Assembly: GCF_021389935.1 (NCBI RefSeq) | Contig: NZ_CP089979.1 | Location: 415,001 to 479,000, forward strand | DNA: 64,000 nucleotides | Direction: 5' to 3' | DNA from: Fulvivirga ligni | GTDB taxonomy: Bacteria; Bacteroidota; Bacteroidia; Cytophagales; Cyclobacteriaceae | In this document: one piece after another, positions 11,901 through 28,819 of the stretch | Layout of the letters: the number at the start of each line of letters is the position of its first letter | Numbering within the stretch: the first letter of the stretch is position 1 | Notes under the pieces: model-generated | What the model saw: only the letters and a program-made list of their open reading frames with translations | Database searches by the model: none | What the model was told of the DNA's origin: nothing | Position numbers and translations under genes: made by a program

Positions 11901-12004
11901 TTTATATTGTAAAAGAAGCCATGGAAAAAATACACGGCAAAATACATGTGCAGTCTCAACTGGAAGAAGGCACCACCTTTACCCTGGAACTGCCTGTGGA
12001 TTAG
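8918..12004 (+). CDS. Two-component propeller sensor histidine kinase without receiver domain
   Basis: A 1028-residue membrane sensor. A signal peptide (to about residue 22) is followed by periplasmic two-component-regulator propeller repeats forming a beta-propeller pair (about 25-620), a Y_Y_Y domain (about 640-715), one membrane helix (about 726-746) and a coiled coil rich in Glu and Lys. The HisKA domain has SASHDLSAP with phospho-acceptor H819, and the HATPase has NLISNAINYHD, SDNGHGIP and GSGLGLYI. Unlike hybrid sensors of carbohydrate loci it has no receiver or helix-turn-helix domain, so it must signal through a separate regulator that is not nearby. Its kinase core closely resembles that of the protein at 56483-58198. 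Confidence 0.9.
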   Translation: MWFKRFISLLLILTTFQVVHGQLYVPQGYHEKDGLPSNIVPGIAQGPKGLLWFLTDQGLCSYDGISWEIMHNLATPKGWSARLHNFPDQSMIITGFERKNFKILFYEKEWKEIDFNLSDEYRKWYDLALTQGFSKDGKYKKFAFNTKGYIHEYDLLNSKWTTFKIPEEVDNLQTMSYVNDTLYFTTSHVIYYHTSGEKEFKKLKVFPPKTHFIHVYKVANSPRVYIVGNGWIGLLVDDEIKVIADFSDPTFLQTSNITDDGMGNLYFTSSDWFYRFNTKTHEFLKFRLEDSNAVPLHSRIFFDNEKNFWVNSYRGAYKVNSFSFTSYNKFSGLIENEGTSIFEVEEGKIMAGGISGYSIIDTKNDTIEAYDLSQQIDRRYIHRFFDIKKTKNNETYVVGGVLGLGKLNSDHKITWRKFPEIPEVVAIYPWGDSMYIANQHSLFLLHENKLSRITSIPAYTRQITTLPDGRLCLLTSEGLFTLEKDQLKPYYYNHEASSNFYVLKQIDGHLYVGSHLGLLEFKNDSIIQGEINGFKIDRPIYDILETRTGHVWVGTDNGVSLIKDNSITQYTPEEGLIGNEINRNSLFEDSKGRVWIGSNDGVSCFDPLMDLPPINPQSVEVLKISNKNTILDQDDLSDLSYKKNDLEFHYRAISFSDEKSVNYRIRLKGLESEWRYLKYPQTSVLYTFLPYGQKYQLEIQARVKQGPWSPSAFSTEVSINQPFYSSWWFIVACLLVSIGIGYLIQYNVNQVQNNLFLKKTVAEKTAEIAASREILREQNKKLLEEIEERKKAEAERSKLIEELTKINKELDWFIYSASHDLSAPIKSLDGLMNIMAREQIEEPGAQYLSLMKKSLSKLEVFINELIDFSRNARTKVTKEEIVIKPFVTEIIDNFKFYKNYPSITFSIETGEEAESILSDPFRIRVIMTNLISNAINYHDTSKEAPFVTIKTSKVENKVLIKVSDNGHGIPSKMIPNIFNMFFRATDKSKGSGLGLYIVKEAMEKIHGKIHVQSQLEEGTTFTLELPVD

Positions 12005-12909
12005 TGCGAACTATCTTGTTTCTTTATTTCTCTGGTAAGTCCTAACTGATGGGCTTTATTTGGAAAGTCAGTAATGATACCATCTACTTTCCATCTTACC
12101 AATTTCTTAAAATCACCTTCATCATTTACTGTCCATGGAATTACCTTAATATCCTTTTTGTGCAGATCCTCGACAGAGTTCTCAGTAATCAGCTTAAAAT
12201 AAGGACTATAAATAGTTGGCTTAAAGCCTAAATTAGCCAGATTAGTATCTATTGATCTGGTATTTTCAACCAGGGCGGCCAGTTTAACATCAGGATAGTG
12301 CTTATGCCAATACTGAAGAACTCTAAAATCAAAAGACTGAATTATCACCCTATCCCATGGTAAATATTGATCAATAAGGTCATATACCAGCTTGGAAAAC
12401 TCTTCTGGTTTTGGATGCCACTCTCCGTCCCCCTCGGGAGAACTTTTAATTTCTATATTATAATTTACTTCATAGTTGGTTTCGCTTTTCACATGCATCT
12501 CCGCAGCTTTTATCACCTCAGAAAGTAGCGGTTTATTGATAGTAATCTTCTGCTGCTCTGGAAACCGAGTGTTATTCAGGCTACCACAATCAAACTTATG
12601 CACCTGCTCATAGGTCATGTTATAGATATTAAACTTTTTATTATCCTGAATCTTTGAATTATCTACGTTCAGGCAAATACTGGGCGAAATATAAGGGTCG
12701 TGAGACACTACCACTTTTTTATCTTTGGTAATTACCACATCCATCTCCAGTGTGGTAACACCCTGATCTAAAGCATAAATAAATGCCGGAATAGTATTCT
12801 CAGGCATCATACCTCTGGCACCTCTATGTCCTTGGATATCTATTTTTTGGGCTTTCAAACTCAAAGTAATTGAAAGTGATATGAATGTGAACAGAAAAAA
12901 AATTCGCAT
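12001..12909 (-). CDS. Secreted glycerophosphodiester phosphodiesterase
   Basis: A 302-residue exported enzyme with signal peptide (residues 1-20) and the GDPD TIM-barrel signature GHRGARGMMPENT. The catalytic and metal residues are H28, R29, E37, E55, D57 and H70. It hydrolyses glycerophosphodiesters to glycerol-3-phosphate and an alcohol, in the periplasm or outside. Its stop codon overlaps the stop of the convergent sensor kinase by four bases. It lies just beyond the end of the polysaccharide locus on the same strand, separated by the DUF6515 gene, so a role in removing phosphoglycerol from glycans is possible but unproven. Confidence 0.9.
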   Translation of the reverse strand: MRIFFLFTFISLSITLSLKAQKIDIQGHRGARGMMPENTIPAFIYALDQGVTTLEMDVVITKDKKVVVSHDPYISPSICLNVDNSKIQDNKKFNIYNMTYEQVHKFDCGSLNNTRFPEQQKITINKPLLSEVIKAAEMHVKSETNYEVNYNIEIKSSPEGDGEWHPKPEEFSKLVYDLIDQYLPWDRVIIQSFDFRVLQYWHKHYPDVKLAALVENTRSIDTNLANLGFKPTIYSPYFKLITENSVEDLHKKDIKVIPWTVNDEGDFKKLVRWKVDGIITDFPNKAHQLGLTREIKKQDSSH

Positions 12910-13638: not shown

Positions 13639-14586
13639 CTATTTACATATTTCAGGAGCCTCATTCAATGTACAAGGCCTGGTGGATGGCACAATCTCAT
13701 GGATTTGTCTTTTACGGCCTTCGATAACGTCATATTGTATAAAGTCCAGAATATCAGGAATATACCTTTTCAGGGGAATGCTATTCCAACCATGATCTCC
13801 GTTACAGCCTGTAACCATATAATATCCCTTATTTAGCGATTCTAGTTTGTTGGCTATGGCTTTTCCACCATAAAGCTTCAGATATCCTGCATCCGCTTCC
13901 TGGCAGTAATGGTGAGAGGCAATGTCATAGGGTACCAGGTCATCACAGGTGCCATGAAAAATCTGAGTAGGTATGGCACTTTGTGCGGTAATATCATCCA
14001 TAGTGTAAAGTGCTCCTGCCATACTAATTACTCCTGCATATTTAACTTCTTTCGGGAGCGCACTTTTATTTTTGTCAATATAGGCAGCATGCAAAACGGC
14101 TTCTGCACCGGCACTGCTACCTGATAAAACAATCTTTCGGATATCAATTTTATATTCCATAGCATGATTAGACAAGTAAGCTACGGCAGCAGCTACCTCT
14201 GAACCAGACTGATCAAAGACAGCTATTTTATCTTCAGCCGGAATGTTACATCCAAAGCCTCTCCCTTTCATGGTAAGAGAATAAGACATACTCACTACAA
14301 CTATACCGTGAGAAGCTATTTGATTACAAACTTTTTGTATCCACTCTTCATCTCTGGCACCACCTGCAAAGCCTCCTCCATGTACATACACTAATACAGG
14401 TCTTTTTTTATTAGCGTCACCAAAGGGTTCATATATATCCATGGCCAGATCCTTTTCTCCAGTTGTGAGATAGGTAGCCTGACTTACAGAGATGCTATCA
14501 AAATGCTGGTTAATATATGAGAGTTTCTGGGCATTAGAATGTAAAAAAACAACGCTAGCGAATATTAGAAGTAGTATTTTCTTCAT
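13639..14586 (-). CDS. Secreted alpha/beta hydrolase (carboxylesterase type)
   Basis: A 315-residue exported esterase-like protein, last gene of the polysaccharide locus. Signal peptide residues 1-19. It has the oxyanion motif HGGGFAGG, the nucleophile elbow GSSAG, an acid in HGTCDDLVPY and the catalytic histidine in NGDHGWNS. The HGGG motif places it near the hormone-sensitive-lipase/carboxylesterase side of the superfamily. In this context it may remove acyl groups (acetyl, succinyl or similar) from a glycan, but no substrate can be read from the sequence. It starts three bases after the sulfatase stop. Confidence 0.83.
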   Translation of the reverse strand: MKKILLLIFASVVFLHSNAQKLSYINQHFDSISVSQATYLTTGEKDLAMDIYEPFGDANKKRPVLVYVHGGGFAGGARDEEWIQKVCNQIASHGIVVVSMSYSLTMKGRGFGCNIPAEDKIAVFDQSGSEVAAAVAYLSNHAMEYKIDIRKIVLSGSSAGAEAVLHAAYIDKNKSALPKEVKYAGVISMAGALYTMDDITAQSAIPTQIFHGTCDDLVPYDIASHHYCQEADAGYLKLYGGKAIANKLESLNKGYYMVTGCNGDHGWNSIPLKRYIPDILDFIQYDVIEGRKRQIHEIVPSTRPCTLNEAPEICK

Positions 14587-14589
14587 GAT

Positions 14590-16113
14590 TTAATAAGTTC
14601 CTTTGTAGTTATGATCAAAACGTGCGCCATGATCTTCCTTTAAAGGTATATTATCTCCTCCGGTTTCTTGCAACCAGTTGAAAAGATCTGCCCGTAGCTC
14701 CTCTGCCACCTCTTTATATTCTGGCATTCTAATCAGATTATGAGCTTCCATTGGATCATTCTTTATATCATAAAGCTCATTAATATCCCACAGACCATAA
14801 TATCTAATAAACTTATATTGATCAGTACGCACGGCATGAACCGTTGGGGTTTGCGGGAAAGGTCGCTCCCAGAAGTATTCGTAATATATTCTGTTTCTCC
14901 ACTCTGGATTTTCTCCTTTTAGTAGTGGCAGTATCGAATGGCCATCCATATTTTTTGGAGTTTCCAACCCTGCCATTTCCATAATAGTAGGACCAATATC
15001 AATATTCTGGACCAGTTGCTCCACGCTATCTCGAGCTAATAAGTTGCCCCCTCCATATACTAAAAGGGGCACACGCATAGATTCTTCATAGGCTTGCCTT
15101 TTATCTATGAGGCCATGTTCTCCGAATGAAAATCCGTTATCTCCCATGTAAAAAACCACAGTATTTTCCAGTAGTTTATTTTTTTCTAAATAACTAATTA
15201 CCTGCCCAATACTCTCATCTAAGGACAAAAGGGTTTCAGTATATCGGCGGTAAAAGTCATCAAATTTAATTTGCCCATGATACATATAATCGACCCCGTG
15301 CCAGCTATACCGCTGTTTTTTCACCCAATCAGGAACATCCTTATAATTATAGGTAGCTGAATCCACCTTATCCGGATACATGGTGATTGGATAGTTGGGT
15401 TTTTCATCTTTAAACTGATCGACATGTCGTTTTGCCGGTTGGAAGTCTGCATGAACACCTTTATGAGAGAGATACATAAAAAAGGGCTTTTCCTTATCTC
15501 TTTTATCAAGCCATTGAATGGCATAATCTGTAAGTAGATCCGTGATGTAAGTACTATCTGAAAATGATTTTTCTTCACCATCTATATTTAATGTGGGGTT
15601 ATAATACTGGCCTTGTCCTTTAAAACTTACCCATCTATCAAAGCCTTTTCTAGGGTTAGCATGGTGCTCGCCCATATGCCATTTACCAAAAAAAGAAGTT
15701 TGGTATCCTCCCTTTTGCAGATACTGAGGAAAAAAGGTAGATGTATCTGCTACAAGTGATTGATTATCTATCACTTGATGTCTGTGGGAAAATTGGCCTG
15801 TTAGAATGGATGCTCTACTAGGAGAACATAATGAAGTAGTGACAAAGGCATTAGTGATGTGAGTACCCTCTTTAGCCATTTTATCCATATTTGGCGTTTT
15901 GAGGAAAGGTACTTTTCCGGTAAAGCCCATGAAATCATACCGATGGTCATCACTTAGAATAAATATTACGTTCAGGGGCTCATCTGAACCTTTGATTTGG
16001 TTAACCCGGAGATCATCGTTGGTTTTAACTTCTTCTCTATTGTCAGGAGCATTATTAGTACAAGCAACTCCTAACAAAATGAAAAGCACGATCAGAACGT
16101 TGGATTTATTCAT
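14590..16113 (-). CDS. Formylglycine-dependent sulfatase (lipoprotein)
   Basis: A 507-residue arylsulfatase-superfamily enzyme. A lipoprotein signal ends at LLGVAC (Cys18). FILSDDHRYD supplies metal-binding D55-D56. LCSPSRASILTG is the CxPxR signature in which C96 becomes formylglycine, and FFGKWHMG and MGDNGFSFGEHG follow as expected. The KPFFMYLSHKGVHADF segment recalls sulfatases acting on N-acetylglucosamine-6-sulfate or related sugars, though this is from memory and not decisive. It sits between GH3 and an esterase, so it probably desulfates the locus substrate. The maturase needed for formylglycine is not in the window. Confidence 0.9.
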   Translation of the reverse strand: MNKSNVLIVLFILLGVACTNNAPDNREEVKTNDDLRVNQIKGSDEPLNVIFILSDDHRYDFMGFTGKVPFLKTPNMDKMAKEGTHITNAFVTTSLCSPSRASILTGQFSHRHQVIDNQSLVADTSTFFPQYLQKGGYQTSFFGKWHMGEHHANPRKGFDRWVSFKGQGQYYNPTLNIDGEEKSFSDSTYITDLLTDYAIQWLDKRDKEKPFFMYLSHKGVHADFQPAKRHVDQFKDEKPNYPITMYPDKVDSATYNYKDVPDWVKKQRYSWHGVDYMYHGQIKFDDFYRRYTETLLSLDESIGQVISYLEKNKLLENTVVFYMGDNGFSFGEHGLIDKRQAYEESMRVPLLVYGGGNLLARDSVEQLVQNIDIGPTIMEMAGLETPKNMDGHSILPLLKGENPEWRNRIYYEYFWERPFPQTPTVHAVRTDQYKFIRYYGLWDINELYDIKNDPMEAHNLIRMPEYKEVAEELRADLFNWLQETGGDNIPLKEDHGARFDHNYKGTY

Positions 16114-16138
16114 TTGATCCCCGGGTTATATTTTAAGA

Positions 16139-18421
16139 TTATTTCAAATAGAAGTCAGCCTCCTTACCTTCTGCAGAGCTCGGTCCTACAAAAACTTTGA
16201 AAGCACCAGGCTCAGCCTCAAAGCTCATATCCTGATGATAGAATGCTAAATCCTCTTTGCTTAAGGTAAAAGTCACTGTTTTAGACTCTCCCTTAGCGAG
16301 TTTTATTTTTTCGAAGCCTTTAAGCTCTTTTACTGGTCTGGTTATAGTACCTACCACATCTCTTACATACAGCTGCACCACTTCAGCACCATCATAATCA
16401 CCAGTGTTACTCACTTTTACCGAAACTGTAAGTTCATCATCCATCGTTAATGAATCTGTACTTAAGCTTAAGTCACCGTATTCAAAAGTAGTGTAGCTAA
16501 GTCCGTAGCCAAATGGATAAAGCGGAGCATTAGAAACATCTAAATAATTAGATCTGAATTTTTGGAACCAACCGCCTTCTGGCAATGGTCTACCAGTATT
16601 TTTGTGGTTATAATATAATGGCACCTGACCTACATTTTGTGGGAAAGTAGCGGTAAGTTTTCCTGAAGGATTCACATCTCCGAAAAGCACATCTGAAATA
16701 GCATTTCCAGCTTCAGATCCTGCAAACCACACATTTAAGATTGATGGAATATTCTCATTTTCCCAAGTCATAGCCAGTGGTCTACCAGTGAAAAGCACCA
16801 TTACTACCGGCTTTCCAGTTTTTAATAAAGCTTTCAATAAGTTTCTTTGGCTTTCAGGAATCTCTATGTCTGATCTACTAGCACTCTCACCACTCATCTC
16901 AGCAGACTCACCTACTGCAGCCACTATCACATCAGCACCTTGAGCAGCTTTAACCACTTCACTGATCATAGCTGATTCTGAGCGATTATCTCTGTAAGTA
17001 GGCTTACCGAAAATACTTACTCTTTTTTCTAATAATGAATCACTTGTAATGTTAGCTCCACGTGCATAAACCACATTTCCTTGCCCTACTACAGCCTCCA
17101 GACCTTCTCTTAAGGAAATCGACTTTTTAAAATCCCCGGCCACACTCCAGGTTCCAGCCATATTTTCTTTGTTATCAGCCATAGGGCCTACTAAGGCGAT
17201 TTTACTTTCTTTTTTCAATGGTAAAATCTGATCCTGGTTTTTCAATAAAACTAAAGTCTGTGCTGCAAGCTCTCTGGCCTTCGCTCTGTGCTCATCGTTA
17301 AAGATTTCAGTTTTTTGTCTTTGCTCATCGCAATATTTATAAGGATCTTCAAAAAGACCAAGCTTATATTTTGCCTTTAATATTCTTCTACAAGCAGCGT
17401 TAATCTGCGCTTCTGAAACTATACCATCTTCCATAGATTTTTTCAGCGTAGTTAAGAAGCCTTCTCCTACCATATCCATATCTACACCTGCATTTAAAGA
17501 TAGGCCTGAAACCGTAGCCAAGTCTCCAAGACCATGTGCTGACATTTCATTAATAGCGGTGTAGTCTGTAACTACAAAACCATTGAATCCCCATTGATCT
17601 CTCAAAAGGTCAGTCATTAACCATTTATTCGCACTTGCTGGTACACCATCCACTTCGTTAAATGAAGTCATCACGCTTCCTACACCTGCATCAACTGCTG
17701 CCTGGTAAGGAGCAAGGTATTCATTGAACATTCTCATTCGGCTCATATCCACCGTATTATAATCTCTACCTGCCTCTATAGCTCCATATAAAGCAAAGTG
17801 CTTCACACAAGCCATAATAGTATTGTTTTGAGTAAGGTCATCACCCTGATATCCTTTTACCATGGCCCTGGCGATAGCTGAACCCAGGAATGGATCTTCA
17901 CCATTACCTTCAGAAACACGGCCCCAACGAGGATCACGCGAGATATCTACCATGGGTGAGAAAGTCCAGCAGATACCATCTGCACTGGCTTCTACCGCAG
18001 CCACTCTGGCTGATTGTTCTATCAGGTCCATATCCCAGCTACAGCTAAGCCCTAATGGAATAGGAAAAAGTGTTTTATAGCCATGAATTACGTCCATACC
18101 AAATATCAAAGGGATTTTTAAACGGCTTTCTTCTACAGCCACTTTTTGTACCGCTTTAATTTTAGAGGCATTGATGTTAAAAAGGCCACCAACTTTACCT
18201 GCTCTAATTTTTTCTCCTATATCTGAACTAGCGGCAGTACCTGTTACAATATCACCGGAAGAGGGTAAGTTAAGCTGACCCAGCTTTTCTTCCAATGTCA
18301 TTTCGTTCATTAAAGAGTCTATAAAACTATTTTGACCATTATCAGAGGTCTCTTTCTTCTTCACCTCACATGCGGCAAAAGCCAGAGATGTTAATAAAAC
18401 AAGAAGTATTCTTTTTGTCAT
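16139..18421 (-). CDS. GH3 family beta-glucosidase (BglX type, lipoprotein or periplasmic)
   Basis: A 760-residue exported glycoside hydrolase with signal and lipobox (LAFAAC, Cys18). The N-terminal TIM barrel has KHFALYGA and GFVVTDYTAINEM, where D286 is the nucleophile. The alpha/beta sandwich carries the acid/base region with GESAEMSGESASRS, and a fibronectin-III-like domain occupies about 660-750. GH3 enzymes of this type release glucose from beta-linked oligosaccharides. Next to GH144-type proteins the expected substrates are sophoro-oligosaccharides (beta-1,2), as for GH3 partners in characterised beta-1,2-glucan loci. Gap of 25 bases to the sulfatase. Confidence 0.92.
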   Translation of the reverse strand: MTKRILLVLLTSLAFAACEVKKKETSDNGQNSFIDSLMNEMTLEEKLGQLNLPSSGDIVTGTAASSDIGEKIRAGKVGGLFNINASKIKAVQKVAVEESRLKIPLIFGMDVIHGYKTLFPIPLGLSCSWDMDLIEQSARVAAVEASADGICWTFSPMVDISRDPRWGRVSEGNGEDPFLGSAIARAMVKGYQGDDLTQNNTIMACVKHFALYGAIEAGRDYNTVDMSRMRMFNEYLAPYQAAVDAGVGSVMTSFNEVDGVPASANKWLMTDLLRDQWGFNGFVVTDYTAINEMSAHGLGDLATVSGLSLNAGVDMDMVGEGFLTTLKKSMEDGIVSEAQINAACRRILKAKYKLGLFEDPYKYCDEQRQKTEIFNDEHRAKARELAAQTLVLLKNQDQILPLKKESKIALVGPMADNKENMAGTWSVAGDFKKSISLREGLEAVVGQGNVVYARGANITSDSLLEKRVSIFGKPTYRDNRSESAMISEVVKAAQGADVIVAAVGESAEMSGESASRSDIEIPESQRNLLKALLKTGKPVVMVLFTGRPLAMTWENENIPSILNVWFAGSEAGNAISDVLFGDVNPSGKLTATFPQNVGQVPLYYNHKNTGRPLPEGGWFQKFRSNYLDVSNAPLYPFGYGLSYTTFEYGDLSLSTDSLTMDDELTVSVKVSNTGDYDGAEVVQLYVRDVVGTITRPVKELKGFEKIKLAKGESKTVTFTLSKEDLAFYHQDMSFEAEPGAFKVFVGPSSAEGKEADFYLK

Positions 18422-18430
18422 GATATATTA

Positions 18431-19216
18431 TTAATTGCGTTGTTTCGAAAATAACCAAGGTAAAAATTCAGGCTCTGCAAATGCACTATCCCAGCTATTA
18501 TGATTAGCCTCGGGGTAAATGGTAAGTTTAACCTCTCCTCCTGCCTGCTCAATGGCCTCTGCCATAATTTCAGAATTTTCAGGTGGTACTATATCATCTT
18601 TTCTACCATGAAAAATCCAGAATGGCACCTTGCCAGCATAGCTTTTAGCACTCACGGGATTATCTCCTCCGCAGATAGCTATGGCGGCGGCAAAAGTATC
18701 TGGCTTACGACTCACGAGCTCAAACGTGCCCATTCCGCCCATAGAAAGACCTGCTACATACACTCTTTGCTGATTTGTAAATTTCAGAGATACCATTGAA
18801 TCTAAAAGCTCCATTACCAGACTCAAAGATTTTGTAGGAGGTTCATTTCCTTCATCATCAAAGTGAAAGGTACGCTTTCCGTTTTCTGATTTTATATTCA
18901 CATTAGACCAATAACCTCCTGTAGGACATTGGGGGAAAACTACAATGGCCGGGAATTCATCCTGATAATCTATAAACAATTGTCCTCCATGAAAGAGTTG
19001 TTTTTGATTATGGTCTCCCCGCTCGCCGGCACCATGTAGGAACAAAACTAATGGGTATTCTTTATTTTCATCAAAATTTTCCGGGTAAAGTATTCTATAA
19101 TTCAAAGAATCATCCTCAGAATGATATGTTTTAGCCAGGTATTGGTCAAAACTTTCCTGCGCCAACACATTGAAACCAAGGCCTAGAAGGAAGATAAGCG
19201 ACAAAATTTTACTCAT
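18431..19216 (-). CDS. Secreted alpha/beta hydrolase (esterase/prolyl oligopeptidase-like)
   Basis: A 261-residue exported hydrolase with signal peptide (1-19). The nucleophile elbow is GLSMGG, the acid lies in HGRKDDIVP and the base in EANHNSWD. The YPLVLFLHGAGERG opening is typical of the phospholipase/carboxylesterase and PHB-depolymerase-like group often found in polysaccharide loci. It overlaps the upstream GH144 gene by eight bases, so translation is coupled. A role in removing ester substituents from the glycan fits the context. It is not closely similar to the other alpha/beta hydrolase of the locus (GSSAG, HGGGF). Confidence 0.82.
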   Translation of the reverse strand: MSKILSLIFLLGLGFNVLAQESFDQYLAKTYHSEDDSLNYRILYPENFDENKEYPLVLFLHGAGERGDHNQKQLFHGGQLFIDYQDEFPAIVVFPQCPTGGYWSNVNIKSENGKRTFHFDDEGNEPPTKSLSLVMELLDSMVSLKFTNQQRVYVAGLSMGGMGTFELVSRKPDTFAAAIAICGGDNPVSAKSYAGKVPFWIFHGRKDDIVPPENSEIMAEAIEQAGGEVKLTIYPEANHNSWDSAFAEPEFLPWLFSKQRN

Positions 19217-20606
19217 CCTCTTTCGCCTCCGTGGTAAAACCTAACTTTTCTAAACCAGCCTGTACTTCAGGAGCCTTCATGAACAAATCCCAAAGCATGC
19301 CACTTCTATAATTCTCTATCATTACAGGTATAGGTCCTTGATCTATAGCCAAATATCTTGGAGTATACCATTTATCTTTAAAGCTGAAGGCATCATATGG
19401 CCCTAGTTCACCTACCAGACTGTCGGCATCATTATAGATGTATCTTAAGAAATCCATACTTTGCTCTGGTGTGTAAGGAAAAGATGAAAGAGCTGCCGTT
19501 GGAGATATAACTCCAAGATCCTCATTACCAGGGTGATGACCGGCATATCCATTTACAGAATAGCTTGAGGTAAGGCCCCAGCAATTTTCACCATAACCTT
19601 CAAAACCCTTAGGGTTTTCTACACAATACTTATACTGGATCATAGCGTGATTAACATTAAGCTTCCAGTAATCCGCATATTGATCTTTCAAGTTTCTAGG
19701 ATCAAGGCCAAGGTAAGAGTAGTGAGCCCAGAAAAGTGGACCTACAGGATCATTGTTAGTTTCGTAATGATCCAGCTCCGTTTCCAGCCCCATGCAAGTA
19801 GTATCCATAGTGATAGAATCATTTCGAGCCCATCCTTTCTCGTAGACTTCCTTCGTAATAGGGTGAGTAGGAGAAGCGGCTGCCAGCACATACATGATTA
19901 AACATTCATTATATCCACCTACCGGAAAGTTCATTTCCCAGGCATATTCGGGAGACCAGTGCCAGTAAAGCACATCCTGACCATGAGTGTACCAATTCCA
20001 TTCTACCCCTTTCCATAACTCATCAATTTTCTCAGCCAATGCTTTTTCTGCTTCGTTTCCATCTTTGAAAAACTCACGTACAGTGATTAATCCCTGCACC
20101 ATGAATGCCGTTTCTACTAAATCTCCACCATTATCTTTCTGGCCAAAGGGCTGTACCTTTCCAGTTGGTCCTTTTATCCAATGTGGCCATGCTCCGTGAA
20201 AGCGATCGGCCTTGGCTAAATAATCAACAATTTTCTCATAACGATGTAATGCCTGTTCTCTGGTAATAAAGCCTCTTTTCACACCTACCAGAATAGCCAT
20301 CAACCCGAAGCCGGAACCACCAGTGGTGACAACATCTTTATCATTTTGCGGGTACACATTATCCATATGCGTACGCTCTGGAGCGAGCCCAGAAGTAGGC
20401 TCTGCATTCTCCCAGAAATACTGAAAGGTTTGATATTGTACCAAATTCAACAAAGAGTCATCTGAAAGGACAACGGCTGAATCCGTCGCTTCTTTTTCCT
20501 TCGTCACTTCCTTCTGTCCTGTGCAGGCTACCAACGCTGCTCCCATCAGTACCATGCTCGCTATTAGCTGATACCTGACCTTTTTTATATGGTTAAATAT
20601 TGTCAT
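19209..20606 (-). CDS. GH144-type glucoamylase-fold protein, probable endo-beta-1,2-glucanase
   Basis: A 465-residue lipoprotein (GAALVAC, Cys28). The glycoamylase (PF10091-like) (alpha/alpha)6-barrel runs from about residue 50 to the end. Diagnostic segments include QTFQYFWENAEPTSGLAPER, TTGGSGFGLMAILVGVKRGF, DNGGDLVETAFMVQGL and YWHWSPEYAWEMNFPVGGYNE. The family founder in GH144 is an endo-beta-1,2-glucanase from Chitinophaga that cuts linear beta-1,2-glucan to sophoro-oligosaccharides. Immediately downstream are an esterase and the GH3 enzyme. The barrel assignment is firm; the beta-1,2 specificity is inference from family and context. Confidence 0.87.
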   Translation of the reverse strand: MTIFNHIKKVRYQLIASMVLMGAALVACTGQKEVTKEKEATDSAVVLSDDSLLNLVQYQTFQYFWENAEPTSGLAPERTHMDNVYPQNDKDVVTTGGSGFGLMAILVGVKRGFITREQALHRYEKIVDYLAKADRFHGAWPHWIKGPTGKVQPFGQKDNGGDLVETAFMVQGLITVREFFKDGNEAEKALAEKIDELWKGVEWNWYTHGQDVLYWHWSPEYAWEMNFPVGGYNECLIMYVLAAASPTHPITKEVYEKGWARNDSITMDTTCMGLETELDHYETNNDPVGPLFWAHYSYLGLDPRNLKDQYADYWKLNVNHAMIQYKYCVENPKGFEGYGENCWGLTSSYSVNGYAGHHPGNEDLGVISPTAALSSFPYTPEQSMDFLRYIYNDADSLVGELGPYDAFSFKDKWYTPRYLAIDQGPIPVMIENYRSGMLWDLFMKAPEVQAGLEKLGFTTEAKEDE

Positions 20607-20619
20607 CTCTCTGTTTATT

Positions 20620-22575
20620 TTAGTAGCTGGTGAAATTTAATTTATCTAAGCCCGATGTGATTTCTTCATTTTGCATGAAAGTATCCCAGAGCAATCCTGT
20701 CCGGTGATTTTCAATCATGATAATGATAGGCCCCTGATCTATAGCCAGGTATGAGCTCGCATACCATGATTTATTAAGGCTGTAGGCATCATAAAAGCCA
20801 TAATCGCCCCACAGCTTATCTCCAAGCAGATAATAAAAACTTTTTAAGGCCTCCATAGATTCGTCAGGGCTGTATGGCATAGATGAGAGGGCTGCGGTAG
20901 GTGTAATTACACCTTTATCATTGGTGGGAGAATGTGCAGAATAACCTTCATAATTATCACTGGCGGTAAGCCCCCACATGCCCTCACCATAACCAAGGTT
21001 TCCTTGCGGATTTTGGATACAGTAAGCTCTGTTTATCATGGTGTGATTCACATTCTGGGTCCAATAGTTTGCATAGCCGTCTTCCAGGTTTCTGGGGTCC
21101 AGGCCTAAAAATGAATAATGAGCGAAGAACAATGGCCCGCCTTTTTCATAACCTAATGGCAAGTTATAGCCATAATAGCTATTACCATTTTCCATACCTC
21201 CACTGCTGGCCCAGCCGCTGAAATACACTGAAGCACTAATGCTGTGAGTAGGTGAAGATGCAGCTAAGACATAGACAATAAGTCCCTCGTTCCATCCTTT
21301 TATCTGGTGATTCATTTCCCAGGCATAGTTAGGAGACCAATGCCAATAAAGCACCTCTTCTCCTTGAGTATACCAGTCCCACTCTACTTCTTCCCAAAGA
21401 GTGGTAATGTTTTCTATAATAGCTTTTTCCTGGGCATTAGATTCATTCAGATATTCACGAACCGTAAGTAAACCCTGGATCATGAAGGCAGTTTCCACCA
21501 GATCTCCACCATCATCTTTGGTGCTGAAAGGAATAACTGCACCCGTTTCACCATTCATCCAGTGTGGCCATACACCGTGGAAACGATCGGCCTCTTGCAA
21601 GAAGTCAACTATCTGCTCTAATCTATCTACACCTTCCTGGCGGGTGATGAATCCTCTTTCTATTCCTACTAAAATGGTCATTACACCAAAGCCAGAGCCA
21701 CCAGTAGTAACTAAATCACCTGATGTATTTCTCTCTCTGGCCAAGCCACTTACAGGATGAGCAAAATCCCAGAAATATTTAAATGTCTGCTCTTGTACTT
21801 TGGTAAGTAGCGCTTCGTCTGAAATCTCAGGAAACTTATAAGTAGAGTCTATTTGGGTATAAAATTCCTTTTCGAAGCCCTCAAAAGTCTCTCCCTCATT
21901 ACCCAGAAGAGTATTTTTAATTTTTAAAGTATATTTTGTCAAAGGCTTAAGTTCTGAAGCTGTGCTAACATTAAAAGTAAGATTATCATCAGAACTGATT
22001 TCTAGATTGGGTGCGGCTGTACCTGTAATGGAAACGGCCGCTTTCAATGCATTAGCCTCCACCGGCACGGTAAAGGTCATGATCATATCAAGATCAAGGT
22101 ATGCATTTAATATCTTTTCACCGACTACTACCTCCTTACTTCCTATTTGCAGGTAAGAAAGGGCAAGGTCGCCAGCTATAGTTTTAAAACTAATTTCTGC
22201 AGGCACCGCACTCCCGCCATTGGTACTTTTTAGGGCTGTACTAATATTTAAAAGGTATGTGCTACTATTCTGTAATCCTCCACCAGGATAAATAATTACG
22301 GTTTTATTTTCTGAGGTGAGGGTGAAATCCAGATTAATAGAATTACCACCGAGAGTAAGGCTAATGCCATCATTCAGGCTGTTAGCATCTACGGCGCTGG
22401 AAAAGGATAAGGAGATGGATCTATCCGTAGGTAGGTTTTCAGTAATTGAGTTCTGGCTTAACTCCGTGGTGCCTACATAGGCCTGTACAAGAGTAAAATT
22501 ACTCTCACCTGGCTCATCGCTACCACAAGCTGCCAAAACAAAAATGAGTAATAAATAAAGAGAGTTTTTGATCAT
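20620..22575 (-). CDS. GH144-type glucoamylase-fold protein with N-terminal Ig-like domains (lipoprotein)
   Basis: A 651-residue lipoprotein (LIFVLAAC, Cys17). Two Ig-like domains (Big_5 type, about 30-130 and 135-245) precede a GH144-type barrel (about 260-650) clearly paralogous to the next gene: QTFKYFWDFAHPVSGLARER, TTGGSGFGVMTILVGIERGF, DDGGDLVETAFMIQGL, YWHWSPNYAWEMNHQIKGWNE. The Ig-like stalk suggests a surface-exposed enzyme held away from the outer membrane, doing the first cuts, while the shorter paralogue may act inside. The upstream ATG at 22623 would place residues before the signal peptide and is rejected. The 103-base gap ahead of this gene holds an inverted repeat. Confidence 0.86.
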   Translation of the reverse strand: MIKNSLYLLLIFVLAACGSDEPGESNFTLVQAYVGTTELSQNSITENLPTDRSISLSFSSAVDANSLNDGISLTLGGNSINLDFTLTSENKTVIIYPGGGLQNSSTYLLNISTALKSTNGGSAVPAEISFKTIAGDLALSYLQIGSKEVVVGEKILNAYLDLDMIMTFTVPVEANALKAAVSITGTAAPNLEISSDDNLTFNVSTASELKPLTKYTLKIKNTLLGNEGETFEGFEKEFYTQIDSTYKFPEISDEALLTKVQEQTFKYFWDFAHPVSGLARERNTSGDLVTTGGSGFGVMTILVGIERGFITRQEGVDRLEQIVDFLQEADRFHGVWPHWMNGETGAVIPFSTKDDGGDLVETAFMIQGLLTVREYLNESNAQEKAIIENITTLWEEVEWDWYTQGEEVLYWHWSPNYAWEMNHQIKGWNEGLIVYVLAASSPTHSISASVYFSGWASSGGMENGNSYYGYNLPLGYEKGGPLFFAHYSFLGLDPRNLEDGYANYWTQNVNHTMINRAYCIQNPQGNLGYGEGMWGLTASDNYEGYSAHSPTNDKGVITPTAALSSMPYSPDESMEALKSFYYLLGDKLWGDYGFYDAYSLNKSWYASSYLAIDQGPIIIMIENHRTGLLWDTFMQNEEITSGLDKLNFTSY

Positions 22576-22628
22576 AATTAGTTGTAAATAATGTGGACTT
22601 CGCCCGTATGACGAAGCCCACACTCACC

Positions 22629-22660
22629 TTAACATAAACTTAACTTAACCCTTATGTTAA
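22629..22660 (-). repeat. Inverted repeat in intercistronic gap of the polysaccharide locus
   Basis: TTAACATAA (22629-22637) and TTATGTTAA (22652-22660) form a perfect 9-base inverted repeat with a 14-base loop inside the only long gap of the operon (22576-22678). It lacks G/C pairs and a T-run, so it is not a classical terminator. It may be an mRNA processing or stability element or a protein site. Confidence 0.4.
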
Positions 22661-22678
22661 TTCTTAAGGCTTTAAAAA

Positions 22679-23788
22679 TTATTCCATCATTTTTTGAATC
22701 TCACTTTGTGGCAAAGCAACATCAAAAATTCTTAGTTCATCAATAAAACTTTCATCTGATAAATGACCCCATTCAATAAATCTAGGAGCTCCTGAACCAA
22801 TAGATAAGATATCACAAGTTGTCCAATCAATTCCTGAAAAAGCACCACTACTAGCCACTTCTCCATTTATATAGACAACACATTCTGTAGATGAGATTGT
22901 AAAAGCCACAAAAGTCCAGTCAGCATCCGTTGCTAAATGATATTCTTCTGCTGAATTAAACCAGCTATCAGCAGAACCATTGCCTGCATTCAATGTAATT
23001 CGTTGTTTCCCATTAGCATTTTCTCTAAAGAGTCTAAAACCTTTCGTTCTATTGTTAGCGGGGGGTGAATCGTCTGTTGGTCCCATAACTAAAATTCCCG
23101 CCCTGTCCGGAGTAGCATCTATCTTATACCAAAATGTAGCCGTAAACTCTGAATTGGCAAGATTATTAGTAGGGAATGTTAAATAAGAATCTGTAGCTCC
23201 TTGGTAGGCATTGGGACCACTTGCACTTTGTCCAGCAAAGCCGGGAGTTCCTTCAACGGTTGGCATTTCGCCACTCTCAACTTCATCGTAATCAAAATTA
23301 AATGGCCAGTAAGCCACTTGACCAGCTGGCACATAAGGTGGCTCTCCTACAGTATTTAAAGTGCGTGTAACATTGTTGAAGCTACCTTCTTCCGCCATCA
23401 AACCTCCATCTGTTGCTCTCAACACATTGGAAATTAGTAACTCATAAGTTGCATCATTATTTAACTCAACCTGTGGGGTTATAGTAACAATGTTATCTTT
23501 AACAGCAACATCTACCGGTATGGCGGAACCTCCCTGACTTAGAGAGATCGTATTTGAATTAACTGTGGATGCATCCACGGCTTTGGAAAAGGTCGCCATA
23601 AAAGCTACATCTACAGGGACCGAATTTGCATTGTTCGCAAGAGTGGCTGAATAAGTTACTCCTGATGAAAAGTCTACACCTTCATATTCCAAACTGGATA
23701 ATGATAATGGTCCAGTTGTCACATTAACATCCTCTTTATCACAGCTGATGAATGCAAAAACTATGAGTATAATTAATATTTTTTTCAT
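22679..23788 (-). CDS. LamG-domain lipoprotein of the polysaccharide locus (probable surface glycan-binding protein)
   Basis: A 369-residue lipoprotein (VFAFISC, Cys16). An Ig-like Big_5 domain (about 35-140) resembles those of the next gene product. A concanavalin A-like LamG/laminin-G-3 jelly roll (about 155-369) contains VAYWPFNFDYDEVESG, FTATFWYKID and SFIDELRIFDVALPQSEI. Its place right after SusCD is that normally taken by SusE/SusF-type or SGBP proteins, so it probably binds the glycan at the cell surface. A catalytic LamG enzyme is unlikely because no glycoside hydrolase signature is visible. Confidence 0.82.
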   Translation of the reverse strand: MKKILIILIVFAFISCDKEDVNVTTGPLSLSSLEYEGVDFSSGVTYSATLANNANSVPVDVAFMATFSKAVDASTVNSNTISLSQGGSAIPVDVAVKDNIVTITPQVELNNDATYELLISNVLRATDGGLMAEEGSFNNVTRTLNTVGEPPYVPAGQVAYWPFNFDYDEVESGEMPTVEGTPGFAGQSASGPNAYQGATDSYLTFPTNNLANSEFTATFWYKIDATPDRAGILVMGPTDDSPPANNRTKGFRLFRENANGKQRITLNAGNGSADSWFNSAEEYHLATDADWTFVAFTISSTECVVYINGEVASSGAFSGIDWTTCDILSIGSGAPRFIEWGHLSDESFIDELRIFDVALPQSEIQKMME

Positions 23789-23804
23789 ATCGTCAATAAT
23801 TGAA

Positions 23805-25301
23805 TTAATATCCCGGATTCTGTGTCAAAACATTGCCTGACAAATCTATTTGAGCTTGAGGAATAGGTAATAATTCATGCTTCCCTTGCGTATAATTAGT
23901 TTTCCCTGCAGCGTGTAGCACATCTGAAGCTATACCCCATCTTACAATATCATAGAAACGCTCATGTTCCATAGCCAATTCAATCCTTCTCTCATGCCTA
24001 ATGGCATCTCTCAACTCTGCCTGATCAGTTGTTGTTACTTCAGGAAGAACATTTAACTCACCTCTCGCCCTAGCTCTAACCATTTCAAGCTTCTCTAAAG
24101 ACTCTACCGTCTGACCTAATTCATTCGCAGCCTCAGCAGCCATTAGGACAACATCAGCATATCTTAAGATTCTGACATTAACCCACCATCCACCTTGGCC
24201 GGATGTAGCCTCTCTATATGCAGGATTCGTATAAACCTTTTGATTATATCTTGGGTTCGGAACACCAGTATCAAAATCTGGAACAGTTTCTCCGTATGGG
24301 GTGGTTTCACCCGCATATAAAATTGTTGCATCTCTTCGGGGGTCGCCATTTTCATACGCAGCATCCAGCTGATCAGAAGGCACATTAAACCCCCAACCTA
24401 AATTCCAATCTCCAGAACCTCTAACACCTTGTACAACAGCATATTGACATCCGAAATCATTGGTTTGGAAATCGCTATTTTTAAGAGCCTGAACTTCAAA
24501 TATTGAGCCTGAATTATTCTCTCCTTCCTCTGTGAAAATCTCGTCGTAAGATGTGTTCAGGTCATAACGACCAGAATTAATTACATTTTGAGACATTGCT
24601 AAAGCATCCGCCCACCGTTGCTGGTATAAATAAACCTTTGCCAAAATACCTTCTGCCACATATTTATTTACGCGACCTACATATTCATGTCCCCAGGTTT
24701 CAGGTAGAAATGATATTGCTTCAAGCAAATCTTCCTCAATCTGATCATAAACCTGACTAGCGGTAGACCGTGGTATAGACACTGTTTCCGTAACATTAGA
24801 CGTTACTAATGGAACTCCTCCAAACGCACGCACCATATTAAAATATAAATACGCTCTGATAAAAAGAGCTTCCGCTCTGGCTACATTGTAATCATATTCA
24901 GTAACAGATTCTCTCAAAGAATCTGCCTGTGCCAAAACATTATTTGCTTGAGAAATGCCATCAAAATGTCCCTGATAAAAGCCGTTTACCAATCCATTAC
25001 TAGGGGTCAATGTAAAATCATCAAATTCTCTTGTACTGGCACCATCAGAGGGAGTACTTCCTTTATCTGCATCTTCAGATCTCACATTAGTAGCTACTAC
25101 AAATGCAAAAGTATGCACATTGTAATCTCTAAGACTTGAATACATACCAAAAACATAAGAGGATAACCCTGACCCCACTGGATAATTATCTTCTGAATAT
25201 CTCGCCAGTGGCTCTCTTTCTAAATAGTCATCACATGACGTGAAGACTATCATTGCGATGCTTAATAGCACACAAAACTTTATATTTAAAATTTTTCTCA
25301 T
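23805..25301 (-). CDS. SusD/RagB family outer-membrane nutrient-binding lipoprotein
   Basis: A 498-residue lipoprotein (MIVFTSC, Cys23) with the SusD TPR-like helical fold. Typical segments are CDDYLEREPLARYSEDNY at the N-terminus, RAEALFIRAYLYFNMVRAFGGVPL in the helix bundle and the C-terminal AIRHERRIELAMEHERFYDIVRWG, followed by ELLPIPQAQI. It forms the lid over the SusC barrel and captures oligosaccharides. It follows SusC by 11 bases and precedes the LamG lipoprotein by 16. The substrate must be inferred from the enzymes of the locus. Confidence 0.96.
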   Translation of the reverse strand: MRKILNIKFCVLLSIAMIVFTSCDDYLEREPLARYSEDNYPVGSGLSSYVFGMYSSLRDYNVHTFAFVVATNVRSEDADKGSTPSDGASTREFDDFTLTPSNGLVNGFYQGHFDGISQANNVLAQADSLRESVTEYDYNVARAEALFIRAYLYFNMVRAFGGVPLVTSNVTETVSIPRSTASQVYDQIEEDLLEAISFLPETWGHEYVGRVNKYVAEGILAKVYLYQQRWADALAMSQNVINSGRYDLNTSYDEIFTEEGENNSGSIFEVQALKNSDFQTNDFGCQYAVVQGVRGSGDWNLGWGFNVPSDQLDAAYENGDPRRDATILYAGETTPYGETVPDFDTGVPNPRYNQKVYTNPAYREATSGQGGWWVNVRILRYADVVLMAAEAANELGQTVESLEKLEMVRARARGELNVLPEVTTTDQAELRDAIRHERRIELAMEHERFYDIVRWGIASDVLHAAGKTNYTQGKHELLPIPQAQIDLSGNVLTQNPGY

Positions 25302-25312
25302 TGTCTTATTTT

Positions 25313-28312
25313 TTAGAAATTAAGATTGATGCCAAGCGTATAAGTTGAAGGCATAGGATAAACGCCATTATCAACTCCGGCACGGAGTGCAGAGCCTCCT
25401 CCTATTTCCGGTGAATAGTTTCTAGCTTTATGCCAAGTAACAGGGTTCTGGGCATTAACATATATTTTAGCAGTGTTAATTCCTATTCTATTAATAAGTG
25501 TACTACTGAAATTATAAGCTAAAGAAACGTTTCTTATTCTGAAGTAATCTCCTGGATCAAGAAAATATGTAGAGTGTAAATAGTTATTAGTTCTACTGTT
25601 ATCCATTATCGGTTCAGTATTAGAAGTTCCTGGTCCTGTCCATCTTCCTAACCTCTCTTCTTCATAATTTAGGACAGCGAAATTTGATCGTGATCTTTCT
25701 CTATATATAGAGTTTCCACCAACGCCTTGAGCCTCAATACTAAAGTCAAAGTTTTTATACGATAGACCCAAGCTCATTCCATAATATACATCTGGATTAG
25801 GATTGCCTATAAATGTTCTATCAGCTGTTTGATCGAAAACACCGTCTCCATCTACATCCTTATATCTAATATCACCTGGTTTCGCCATTCCTGCTTGCGG
25901 TGAATTGGCGATCTCTTCTTCGGTCTGGAAAATCCCCTCCATCACTAAACCGTAGAATGAGCCCACAGGCTGACCAACCACAGTTCTTGAATTTTCCTGC
26001 ACAATAGAAAATTCTAAATCATCACCTATTGATGTTACTTCATTACTATTAGTGGTAATATTTCCACCAATAGTATACTTGAAATCTGAACTAATTTCAT
26101 CACTCCAGCTTAATGACAATTCAACCCCCTTATTTACCACACTACCTAAATTCACCCAATAAAATGGGCTGCCCACCGTTAATTCTGCAGGTAATTCTAT
26201 CTGTACTAATAAATCTGTAGATTCTCTGTTATAATAAGAGAAATCGGCTGATAACTTATCATTGATTAAAGCCGCTTCAAATCCAATATCATAACCAACA
26301 ACCGTTTCCCATTTTAAATCGGGATTCCTTCTATAATTTGGAGATGCAGAAAATATTACTTCCTCTCCAAACACGGCTGCTTCAGAAGTATTCAACGTAG
26401 GGTAATACAGGTAATTTGGTATTTTGTCATTTCCTAGGGCACCCCATGAAGCTTTTAATTTTAAGAAATTAACGAAGTTAACTCCACTCATAAAGTTTTC
26501 TTCCGAGATAATCCATCCTGCACCTACAGAACCAAAATTTCCCCATTTATTATTTGGACCAAACTTGGATGATCCATCTCTTCTATAAGTGAGGTTCAAT
26601 AAGTATTTATTGTTGTATGAATAATTAATTCTACTCAAGAAAGATAAAAATGCCTGTTCTTCTCCTCCGCCGGAAGCAGACTGGTTAGTGTTCTGCTGAC
26701 CTATATTGACATACCACAATTCTGGAATATCTGGAATATCTACAGGTGATTCACTATTCCTTGTGGCTCCAACATTCACATTATATAATTCTCTACTAAT
26801 TATTCCGCCTAGAACGGTTACATCATGAACATCATTAAAAACCTTATTGTAAGTAAGAATGTGGTCCATTTGATAAGTAGTGTACTTGGCCATACTTTGA
26901 GAAACTGAGGTAATATCATTGAATTGTGCACGGCTATCACCGGTACCAATTTCAAATAAAGGATTATAACTTCTGTCTTCATTAAAGCCCCAGTCTCCAT
27001 AAAGAGTAGACTTCCAATTAAAGTTTTTAAGAAAATTAACCTCAAACCATGCAGACCCGACAATTCTATAGCCTTCACTAAATGACTTACCTTCAAAAAT
27101 CTCCGTGTAGGCTACTGGATTAGTTACCTGTGCCCTTTGAAAAGATGGGGATGGATTCCAATTACCGTTCTCATCTTTTGGTGCAAAAACAGGTGCTGCA
27201 TAGAGAGACGTGGAGATACCTATATTAGTTGGATTTCTTTCCCATCTATAACCATTTATATCAGCCCCAACTTTAACATTTTTATTAATCTTTAATTCAT
27301 CTCTCAGTCGAACTGTATATCTTTTATATTCATCATATTTTTGCACCCCCTCCTGATCTAGGTAACTCACTGTCAGGTTGACATTATTAGTTTCAGTGGC
27401 AGATTTCACACTTAGACTAGTGTTAGTAATAAATCCGGTTCTTAAAATTTCATCTTGCCAGTCCGTATTTATACCATCGTATTGACTAAAATCAAATGGC
27501 TGATTTCCCAAATTAGCTAGCTGCTCGTTATAAAGCATCTTGAATTCATCTGCGTTAGTAAGGCCAATTCTATTATGAACTGTCTGAAAACCTGCATAAG
27601 AGTTTAAGTTCACAGATGTTTGTCCCTCTTTAGCCTTCTTGGTGGTAATAATTATGGCACCATTTGCGCCCTGAACTCCAAATACGGCTAAAGAAGATGG
27701 ATCTTTAAGCACTTCAACCGATTCAATATCTGCAGGGTTCACAAAATCAATATTATCTGTGAATATACCATCTACAATATATAAAGGAGCGATTCCATTA
27801 ACAGAACCAACACCTCTAATCCTGATTGTAGGAGCAGCACCTGCTCTACCGCTATTGGTTACTTGTATACCAGATGCCTTTCCTTGTAATGCATTTAATG
27901 CATTAGGTACTGGAGCCTCAGCGATTTGATCTCCATCTATGGAAGCTATAGAACCAGTTACATCACGCTTCTGCTGCGTACCATAACCTACCACAACAAC
28001 CTCTTGTAATTCACTTACATCACTGGATAGCGTTACGTTAATAATGCTTCTTCCACTTACGGCTTCTTTAACACTTGTAAACCCAATAAAAGAGAATACG
28101 AGCGTCTCACCGTCGCTTACCTGAATAGTATAATTACCGTCTACATCGGTAACAGCTCCCTGGGTGGTGCCTTCCACTACGATGTTTACGCCTGGAAGAG
28201 GCTCACCATCATCAGCGGATGTCACTTTACCCTGAACTGTGTTCTGCGCCTGCGCCTGAATGGCTATCACCGCCAAAAACAGCAGGCTAGTAATTCGTAA
28301 AAGTTTAATCAT
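25313..28312 (-). CDS. SusC/RagA family TonB-dependent outer-membrane transporter
   Basis: A 999-residue transporter, first gene of the locus. A signal peptide (to AQAQ, about residue 23) precedes a carboxypeptidase-regulatory-like beta domain (about 25-100, VTSADDGEPLPGVNIVVEGT). Then come the SusC TonB-region motif VVVGYGTQQKRDVTGSI, a plug with GRAGAAPTIRIRGVGS and a 22-strand barrel ending in TYTLGINLNF. It imports oligosaccharides using TonB energy with SusD as lid. An upstream in-frame ATG at 28465 would add 51 non-signal residues and is rejected. No extracytoplasmic sigma/anti-sigma pair or hybrid sensor is adjacent, so the regulator is elsewhere. Confidence 0.96.
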   Translation of the reverse strand: MIKLLRITSLLFLAVIAIQAQAQNTVQGKVTSADDGEPLPGVNIVVEGTTQGAVTDVDGNYTIQVSDGETLVFSFIGFTSVKEAVSGRSIINVTLSSDVSELQEVVVVGYGTQQKRDVTGSIASIDGDQIAEAPVPNALNALQGKASGIQVTNSGRAGAAPTIRIRGVGSVNGIAPLYIVDGIFTDNIDFVNPADIESVEVLKDPSSLAVFGVQGANGAIIITTKKAKEGQTSVNLNSYAGFQTVHNRIGLTNADEFKMLYNEQLANLGNQPFDFSQYDGINTDWQDEILRTGFITNTSLSVKSATETNNVNLTVSYLDQEGVQKYDEYKRYTVRLRDELKINKNVKVGADINGYRWERNPTNIGISTSLYAAPVFAPKDENGNWNPSPSFQRAQVTNPVAYTEIFEGKSFSEGYRIVGSAWFEVNFLKNFNWKSTLYGDWGFNEDRSYNPLFEIGTGDSRAQFNDITSVSQSMAKYTTYQMDHILTYNKVFNDVHDVTVLGGIISRELYNVNVGATRNSESPVDIPDIPELWYVNIGQQNTNQSASGGGEEQAFLSFLSRINYSYNNKYLLNLTYRRDGSSKFGPNNKWGNFGSVGAGWIISEENFMSGVNFVNFLKLKASWGALGNDKIPNYLYYPTLNTSEAAVFGEEVIFSASPNYRRNPDLKWETVVGYDIGFEAALINDKLSADFSYYNRESTDLLVQIELPAELTVGSPFYWVNLGSVVNKGVELSLSWSDEISSDFKYTIGGNITTNSNEVTSIGDDLEFSIVQENSRTVVGQPVGSFYGLVMEGIFQTEEEIANSPQAGMAKPGDIRYKDVDGDGVFDQTADRTFIGNPNPDVYYGMSLGLSYKNFDFSIEAQGVGGNSIYRERSRSNFAVLNYEEERLGRWTGPGTSNTEPIMDNSRTNNYLHSTYFLDPGDYFRIRNVSLAYNFSSTLINRIGINTAKIYVNAQNPVTWHKARNYSPEIGGGSALRAGVDNGVYPMPSTYTLGINLNF

Positions 28313-28633: not shown

Positions 28634-28819
28634 TCATCCGATTACGAAACAGCGCTCTAAAACCTGTTGGTATCTGTTGTTGAATTTGGCATAGCACCAG
28701 TTTCTCAACTCATTTACTTCATCATCAATTAAAGATTGGATGGCCTTATTAAGCTCTTTTTCGAAAAGTCGTGCATCAAAACTCACCTTTGTGAGTATAG
28801 TTTTCACGTATTCTAACAT
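28634..28819 (-). CDS. Small uncharacterised cytoplasmic protein (61 residues)
   Basis: I do not recognise a named family. The protein is amphipathic and probably all-helical, with sequence MLEYVKTILTKVSFDARLFE at the start and two cysteines. It lacks a signal or membrane segment. Its reality is supported by a good terminator 22 bases downstream and by its own gene space between the divergent batD promoter and the polysaccharide locus. I have an impression of similar short proteins in other Bacteroidota, but cannot verify it here. Confidence 0.7.
   Translation of the reverse strand: MLEYVKTILTKVSFDARLFEKELNKAIQSLIDDEVNELRNWCYAKFNNRYQQVLERCFVIG

Follow-up and report, generated by a model that had tools for sequence, protein, structure and literature searches.

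The locus

The window, that is, the whole stretch of 64,000 nucleotides of Fulvivirga ligni DNA analysed here, belongs to a genome consisting of one contig of 6.52 Mb. Using the list of open reading frames and profile searches, a run of nine genes was found at 13639-28312, all on the minus strand and all with family matches far above chance. The first-pass annotation had described the same nine genes in the same order, and all of them were recovered. Starting from SusC, the run reads:

25313..28312, minus strand: SusC-type TonB-linked outer-membrane transporter (TIGR04056, 858 bits; plug and CarboxypepD_reg domains)
23805..25301, minus strand: SusD-type glycan-binding lipoprotein (SusD_RagB, 128 bits, and SusD-like_3; lipobox ...FTSC-DD)
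22679..23788, minus strand: Big_5 and LamG lipoprotein, likely a surface glycan-binding protein (Laminin_G_3, 80 bits; Big_5, 40 bits)
20620..22575, minus strand: GH144 B, lipoprotein (C-GSDE) with an N-terminal Big_5 domain (PF10091, 254 bits)
19209..20606, minus strand: GH144 A, CpSGL-like lipoprotein (Glycoamylase PF10091, 273 bits)
18431..19216, minus strand: estA, secreted alpha/beta-hydrolase esterase (Peptidase_S9, Abhydrolase_2, DLH and PHB-depolymerase-like matches)
16139..18421, minus strand: GH3 beta-glucosidase lipoprotein (BglX model, 946 bits; two GH3 domains, 263 and 206 bits)
14590..16113, minus strand: S1 formylglycine sulfatase lipoprotein (Sulfatase PF00884, 206 bits; CSPSR)
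13639..14586, minus strand: estB, secreted BD-FAE-like alpha/beta-hydrolase esterase (BD-FAE, 69.5 bits; GSSAGA and HGGGF motifs)

The SusC gene starts with the ATG at 28312, and a longer TTG open reading frame to 28465 is a mechanical call. The listed start of GH144 B is a GTG at 22623, whereas the ATG at 22575 is where its lipoprotein signal begins. The intergenic gaps are 3, 25, 9, -8, 13, about 55-103, 16 and 11 bases. Because of these short gaps and the common strand, the nine genes may form one transcription unit and would then be co-regulated. A search for the Bacteroidetes promoter pattern upstream of SusC gave no match. With SusCD, GH144 and GH3 in one run, the locus has the composition of a beta-1,2-glucan PUL.

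A lipoprotein-type cysteine was observed near the N terminus of SusD, the LamG protein, both GH144 proteins, GH3 and the sulfatase, and plain signal peptides were recognised by eye in SusC and both esterases. In Bacteroidetes lipoproteins, acidic residues behind the cysteine are known as a signal for surface export. Such residues closely follow the cysteine in SusD, the LamG protein and GH144 B, and less so in the sulfatase and GH3, which suggests that the first three are exported to the surface.

Backbone specificity

Both GH144-type proteins were compared with CpSGL. GH144 A matches it with 640 bits (5gzk), and GH144 B matches 4gl3 with 580 bits and CpSGL with 533 bits (5gzh). The first-pass annotation had named a profile placement outside GH144 as grounds for giving up its proposal of beta-1,2-glucan; by these scores and those for PF10091, both proteins lie within the family, and the genome encodes no further PF10091 protein. 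GH144 A carries the motifs KDNGGDLVET and YNEC, and GH144 B carries KDDGGDLVET and WNEG. D135, D139, E142 and E211 of CpSGL are identical in both proteins, and we take E211 to be the general acid. The numbering of the 5gzh chain fits that of the published work, so that the residues could be read off directly. In CpSGL, changes of D135, D139 and E142 sharply cut activity, and the E142 position is the likeliest general base (PMC12102758). GH144 B is likely a surface endo-beta-1,2-glucanase.

The GH3 protein matches 3u48 with 1179 bits and 5xxl of Bacteroides thetaiotaomicron, which we take to be BT_3567, with 1094 bits over residues 27-760. By similarity to 5xxl, it is predicted to be a sophoro-oligosaccharide beta-glucosidase. 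A beta-glucosidase from the beta-1,2-glucanase gene cluster of B. thetaiotaomicron is described as preferring longer sophoro-oligosaccharides (PMC8861115). In its GH144-type enzyme and closely related GH3, that cluster resembles the locus, whereas in the part of its description drawn on here it is not reported to hold a sulfatase or esterases.

Few GH144 enzymes have been characterised, and the loci of some relatives contain GH2 and GH43 genes, which suggest that other sugars occur in certain versions. The two enzymes could thus act on another backbone, the polymer being some other sulfated, acylated glycan. The high similarity to CpSGL, the four conserved acids and the 5xxl-type GH3 make this decidedly improbable. 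Because of the same three features, beta-1,2-glucan is very probably the backbone, and the proposal of the first-pass annotation is strongly supported on this point.

Properties of the sulfatase

The sulfatase carries the full S1 set of D55, D56, C96, R100, K144, H146, H217, D325, D337, K338 and R339, invariant among 44 aligned sequences. The formylglycine motif C-x-P-S-R, here CSPSR, places it in S1, and FGE-family genes are present in the host genome. Its best sequence matches are S1_11 enzymes, with BT3177 at the top; this top score is 316 bits, compared with 542 for a clear S1_11 relative from another GH144 locus (L103). The predicted structure has a mean pLDDT of 84.8, with values below 50 at 331-338, a segment that holds part of the active site. 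Its nearest folds are BT3177, BT4656, an Akkermansia sulfatase, BuS1_11 and Bacple_01701, and those with known activity remove 6-O-sulfate. In all 44 aligned sequences Lys338 is flanked by Asp337 and Arg339, whose counterparts in the BT4656 chain are D361 and R363; we take these to be the reported S1_11 Asp/Arg pair.

S1_11 enzymes acting on mucin are exo-acting; in S1_11, a His and the Asp/Arg pair recognise a gluco-configured sugar by its O3 and O4 (PMC10154612). A 6-O-sulfated glucose would fit this mode of recognition, since O3, O4 and O6 are free in beta-1,2-glucan. On its sequence and fold matches, the window sulfatase is predicted to be an exo-6-O-sulfatase. BT3177, BT4656 and BuS1_11 share with it the Asp-Lys-Arg motif and the catalytic set, but they act on other substrates (6S-GlcNAc, 6S-L-galactose). 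The identity of the window sulfatase to characterised sulfatases is only about 30-35%, so that both the sulfated position, presumably O6, and the sugar are extrapolated. Its base composition (GC 0.386, compared with 0.390 for the window) gave no signal of recent foreign origin.

A different reading starts from osmoregulated periplasmic glucans. In that case the polymer attacked would be a beta-1,2-glucan substituted with succinyl and phosphoglycerol; succinyl would be split off by the esterases, and the enzyme of sulfatase fold would serve as a phosphodiesterase. The glucans of Escherichia coli carry phosphoglycerol, phosphoethanolamine and succinyl (PMC3818809). A GDPD gene lies near the locus, and among 60 surveyed loci EEP-family proteins were found in 8 and calcineurin-like phosphoesterases in 3, together with one alkaline phosphatase. 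However, a neighbouring GDPD gene is confined to Fulvivirga loci (L005, L006), and the sulfatase set (DD, CSPSR, K144, H146, DN) is kept. The protein is also closer to BT3177 than to phosphonate monoester hydrolase (147 bits), and a phosphodiesterase is disfavoured by residues and scores alike. Genes next to the sulfatase in relatives likewise point to sulfate. In Fulvivirga imtechensis a formylglycine-generating enzyme gene directly follows it (L005:11678-12628; a homologue is found in L006), and in several Roseivirga and Fulvivirga loci a TauE/SafE-family transporter follows directly or one gene on (L011:12541-13296, L014:12369-13121 and others); these loci were found via the sulfatase, are closely related and count as few events. 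We consider a periplasmic glucan rather unlikely as the target, and a sulfated polymer remains the preferred reading.

Esterases

estA has a GLSMGG motif as well as its signal peptide, and its nearest solved relative is the 3doh esterase. For both esterases the family matches are generic (alpha/beta hydrolase) and name no acyl group. That they remove acyl groups, and which groups these would be, we infer. Esterases tend to accompany sulfatases: an esterase was found in 9 of 13 sulfatase loci, compared with 16 of 53 loci overall.

Related loci and linkage of the sulfatase

GH144 was found in 119 of 198 sampled genomes of the host family. We compared 91 GH144 loci, 60 of which had been drawn via GH144 and not via the sulfatase; modules were counted in the 53 of these 60 that have SusC or SusD. 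The first-pass annotation had proposed a search for the same gene order in other genomes, and the core indeed recurs in most of the 53 loci (GH144 A in 47, GH144 B in 47, GH3 in 41, LamG in 33). The other genes vary: GH43 was found in 16, estA in 11, estB in 7, EEP in 7, the window-type sulfatase in 6 and second sulfatase types in 7. Sulfatase, esterases and GH43 are thus swappable modules on a fixed common core. In two sister species (G108, G167) the locus likewise lies next to the BatD gene. It comprises GH144 A, estA, GH3 and estB but no sulfatase, no separate GH144 B and no LamG protein, and its SusC and SusD differ from those of the window. These species offer a natural control.

A GH43 gene (e.g. 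L085:1-1179), absent from the window, occurs in 30-odd other GH144 loci. It is commoner in sulfatase-bearing loci, with p=0.009 in a partly biased sample and 0.09 in the survey. A secreted endonuclease/exonuclease/phosphatase-family protein is encoded at L135:1188-2081 and in about 14 other GH144 loci. EEP-family genes showed no association with the sulfatase.

The core genes suffice for plain beta-1,2-glucan, and 40 of the 53 loci have no sulfatase. The system might therefore degrade plain linear or cyclic beta-1,2-glucan, with the sulfatase and esterases as passengers acting on other scavenged compounds. This was weighed against a chance model using the sulfatase counts of each of 52 related GH144 genomes and a 20-kb same-strand stretch. 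A same-strand sulfatase was found in the locus of 15 of the 52 genomes, with 2.2 expected by chance, and none of 200,000 simulations reached 15. For genomes with at least about 35 sulfatases, candidate counts were used instead, which overstates the chance expectation. The model treats related genomes as independent, so that the direction is clear and the exact probability is not to be trusted. Among genomes with at most three sulfatases, 7 of 16 keep one at the GH144 locus (0.05 expected), and in three (G013, G079, G117) it is the genome's only one, which makes such genomes simple test systems. The linkage of sulfatase and GH144 locus is non-random.

The clade of the window sulfatase comprises 34 rows, 27 of them GH144-linked, and the remaining seven are mostly from contigs that are short or cut. 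A second sulfatase type (L102, L103, L107, L112, L130, L138) is about 35% identical to that of the window and is S1_11-like, because the L103 protein matches BT4656 with the 542 bits given above. GH144 loci have acquired sulfatases of several lineages. GH144-linked sulfatases were also found in Parapedobacter, Chitinophaga, Niastella, Terrimonas and Pedobacter. These genera are known mainly from compost, sludge and soil, so that the pattern is not only marine. Linkage far above chance, its origin in several lineages, its retention in sulfatase-poor genomes and the packing of the genes in one run make plain glucan with passenger enzymes an improbable explanation.

Proposed substrate and pathway

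We regard it as reasonably probable that the nine genes form a complete polysaccharide utilization locus by which a beta-1,2-glucan with 6-O-sulfate and acyl groups is taken up and degraded. The LamG and SusD lipoproteins would hold the polymer at the surface, where GH144 B would cut it, and SusC would import the decorated oligosaccharides. In the periplasm, GH144 A would shorten these, the two esterases would take off acyl groups and the sulfatase would strip 6-O-sulfate off the glucose at the non-reducing end. Glucose could then be released by GH3, an exo-acting enzyme that would probably be blocked by a 6-sulfate. We infer where each protein acts, in what order, and what the polymer is.

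GH144 PULs with an added sulfatase have been described in marine Bacteroidetes, and a sulfated beta-1,2-glucan-type polymer was deduced from them (Lapebie et al. 2019, PMC6499787). The combination and the deduction are the same as here, but those loci were described as marine, whereas the relatives found here include compost and soil genera, and the passages of that paper used here do not discuss the esterases or the sulfatase type. A cluster of Maribacter dokdonensis 62-1 with GH3, two GH144, susCD and a sulfatase (PMC8072126) shares the core enzymes and the sulfatase with the window; this organism is a flavobacterium and no Fulvivirga relative, and the portion of the report considered here does not mention esterases. 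The first-pass annotation knew of no described locus with GH144 and a sulfatase; such loci were published in 2019 and 2021, in marine Bacteroidetes (PMC6499787, PMC8072126). Its suggestion of a decorated polymer thus loses its novelty, but still accounts best for the sulfatase and esterases, with stronger linkage evidence than it had. New here are the sulfatase type, the linkage statistics, the several sulfatase lineages including compost and soil genera, and the swapping of modules on a fixed core.

Our search found no report identifying the polymer of GH144-sulfatase loci. We know of no matching sulfated beta-1,2-glucan. More tentatively, and with some doubt, natural beta-1,2-glucans with acyl groups, sulfate (probably at O6) and, in some cases, GH43-cleavable branches may be widespread on land and in the sea, and Bacteroidota may follow these decorations by exchanging sulfatase, esterase and GH43 modules on a fixed SusCD-GH144-GH3 core. 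If such a polymer exists, many Bacteroidota would have in it a carbon source whose chemistry has apparently not been described so far.

Neighbouring genes

Two genes outside the run were considered and rejected as parts of the system. The GDPD gene (12001-12909, minus strand), which is also found beside the locus, together with PfkB, in F. imtechensis (L005), was set aside for its restriction to Fulvivirga loci. A propeller-type sensor histidine kinase (8918-12004, plus strand), in which no receiver or DNA-binding domain was detected, was rejected as regulator; no close relative of it lies at other GH144 loci, and it is separated from the run by the GDPD and DUF6515 genes. Upstream of SusC, a 61-codon open reading frame (28634-28819, minus strand) shares 79% identity with its counterparts in two sister genomes that have the same BatD neighbour (L083, L084) and is probably a real small gene.
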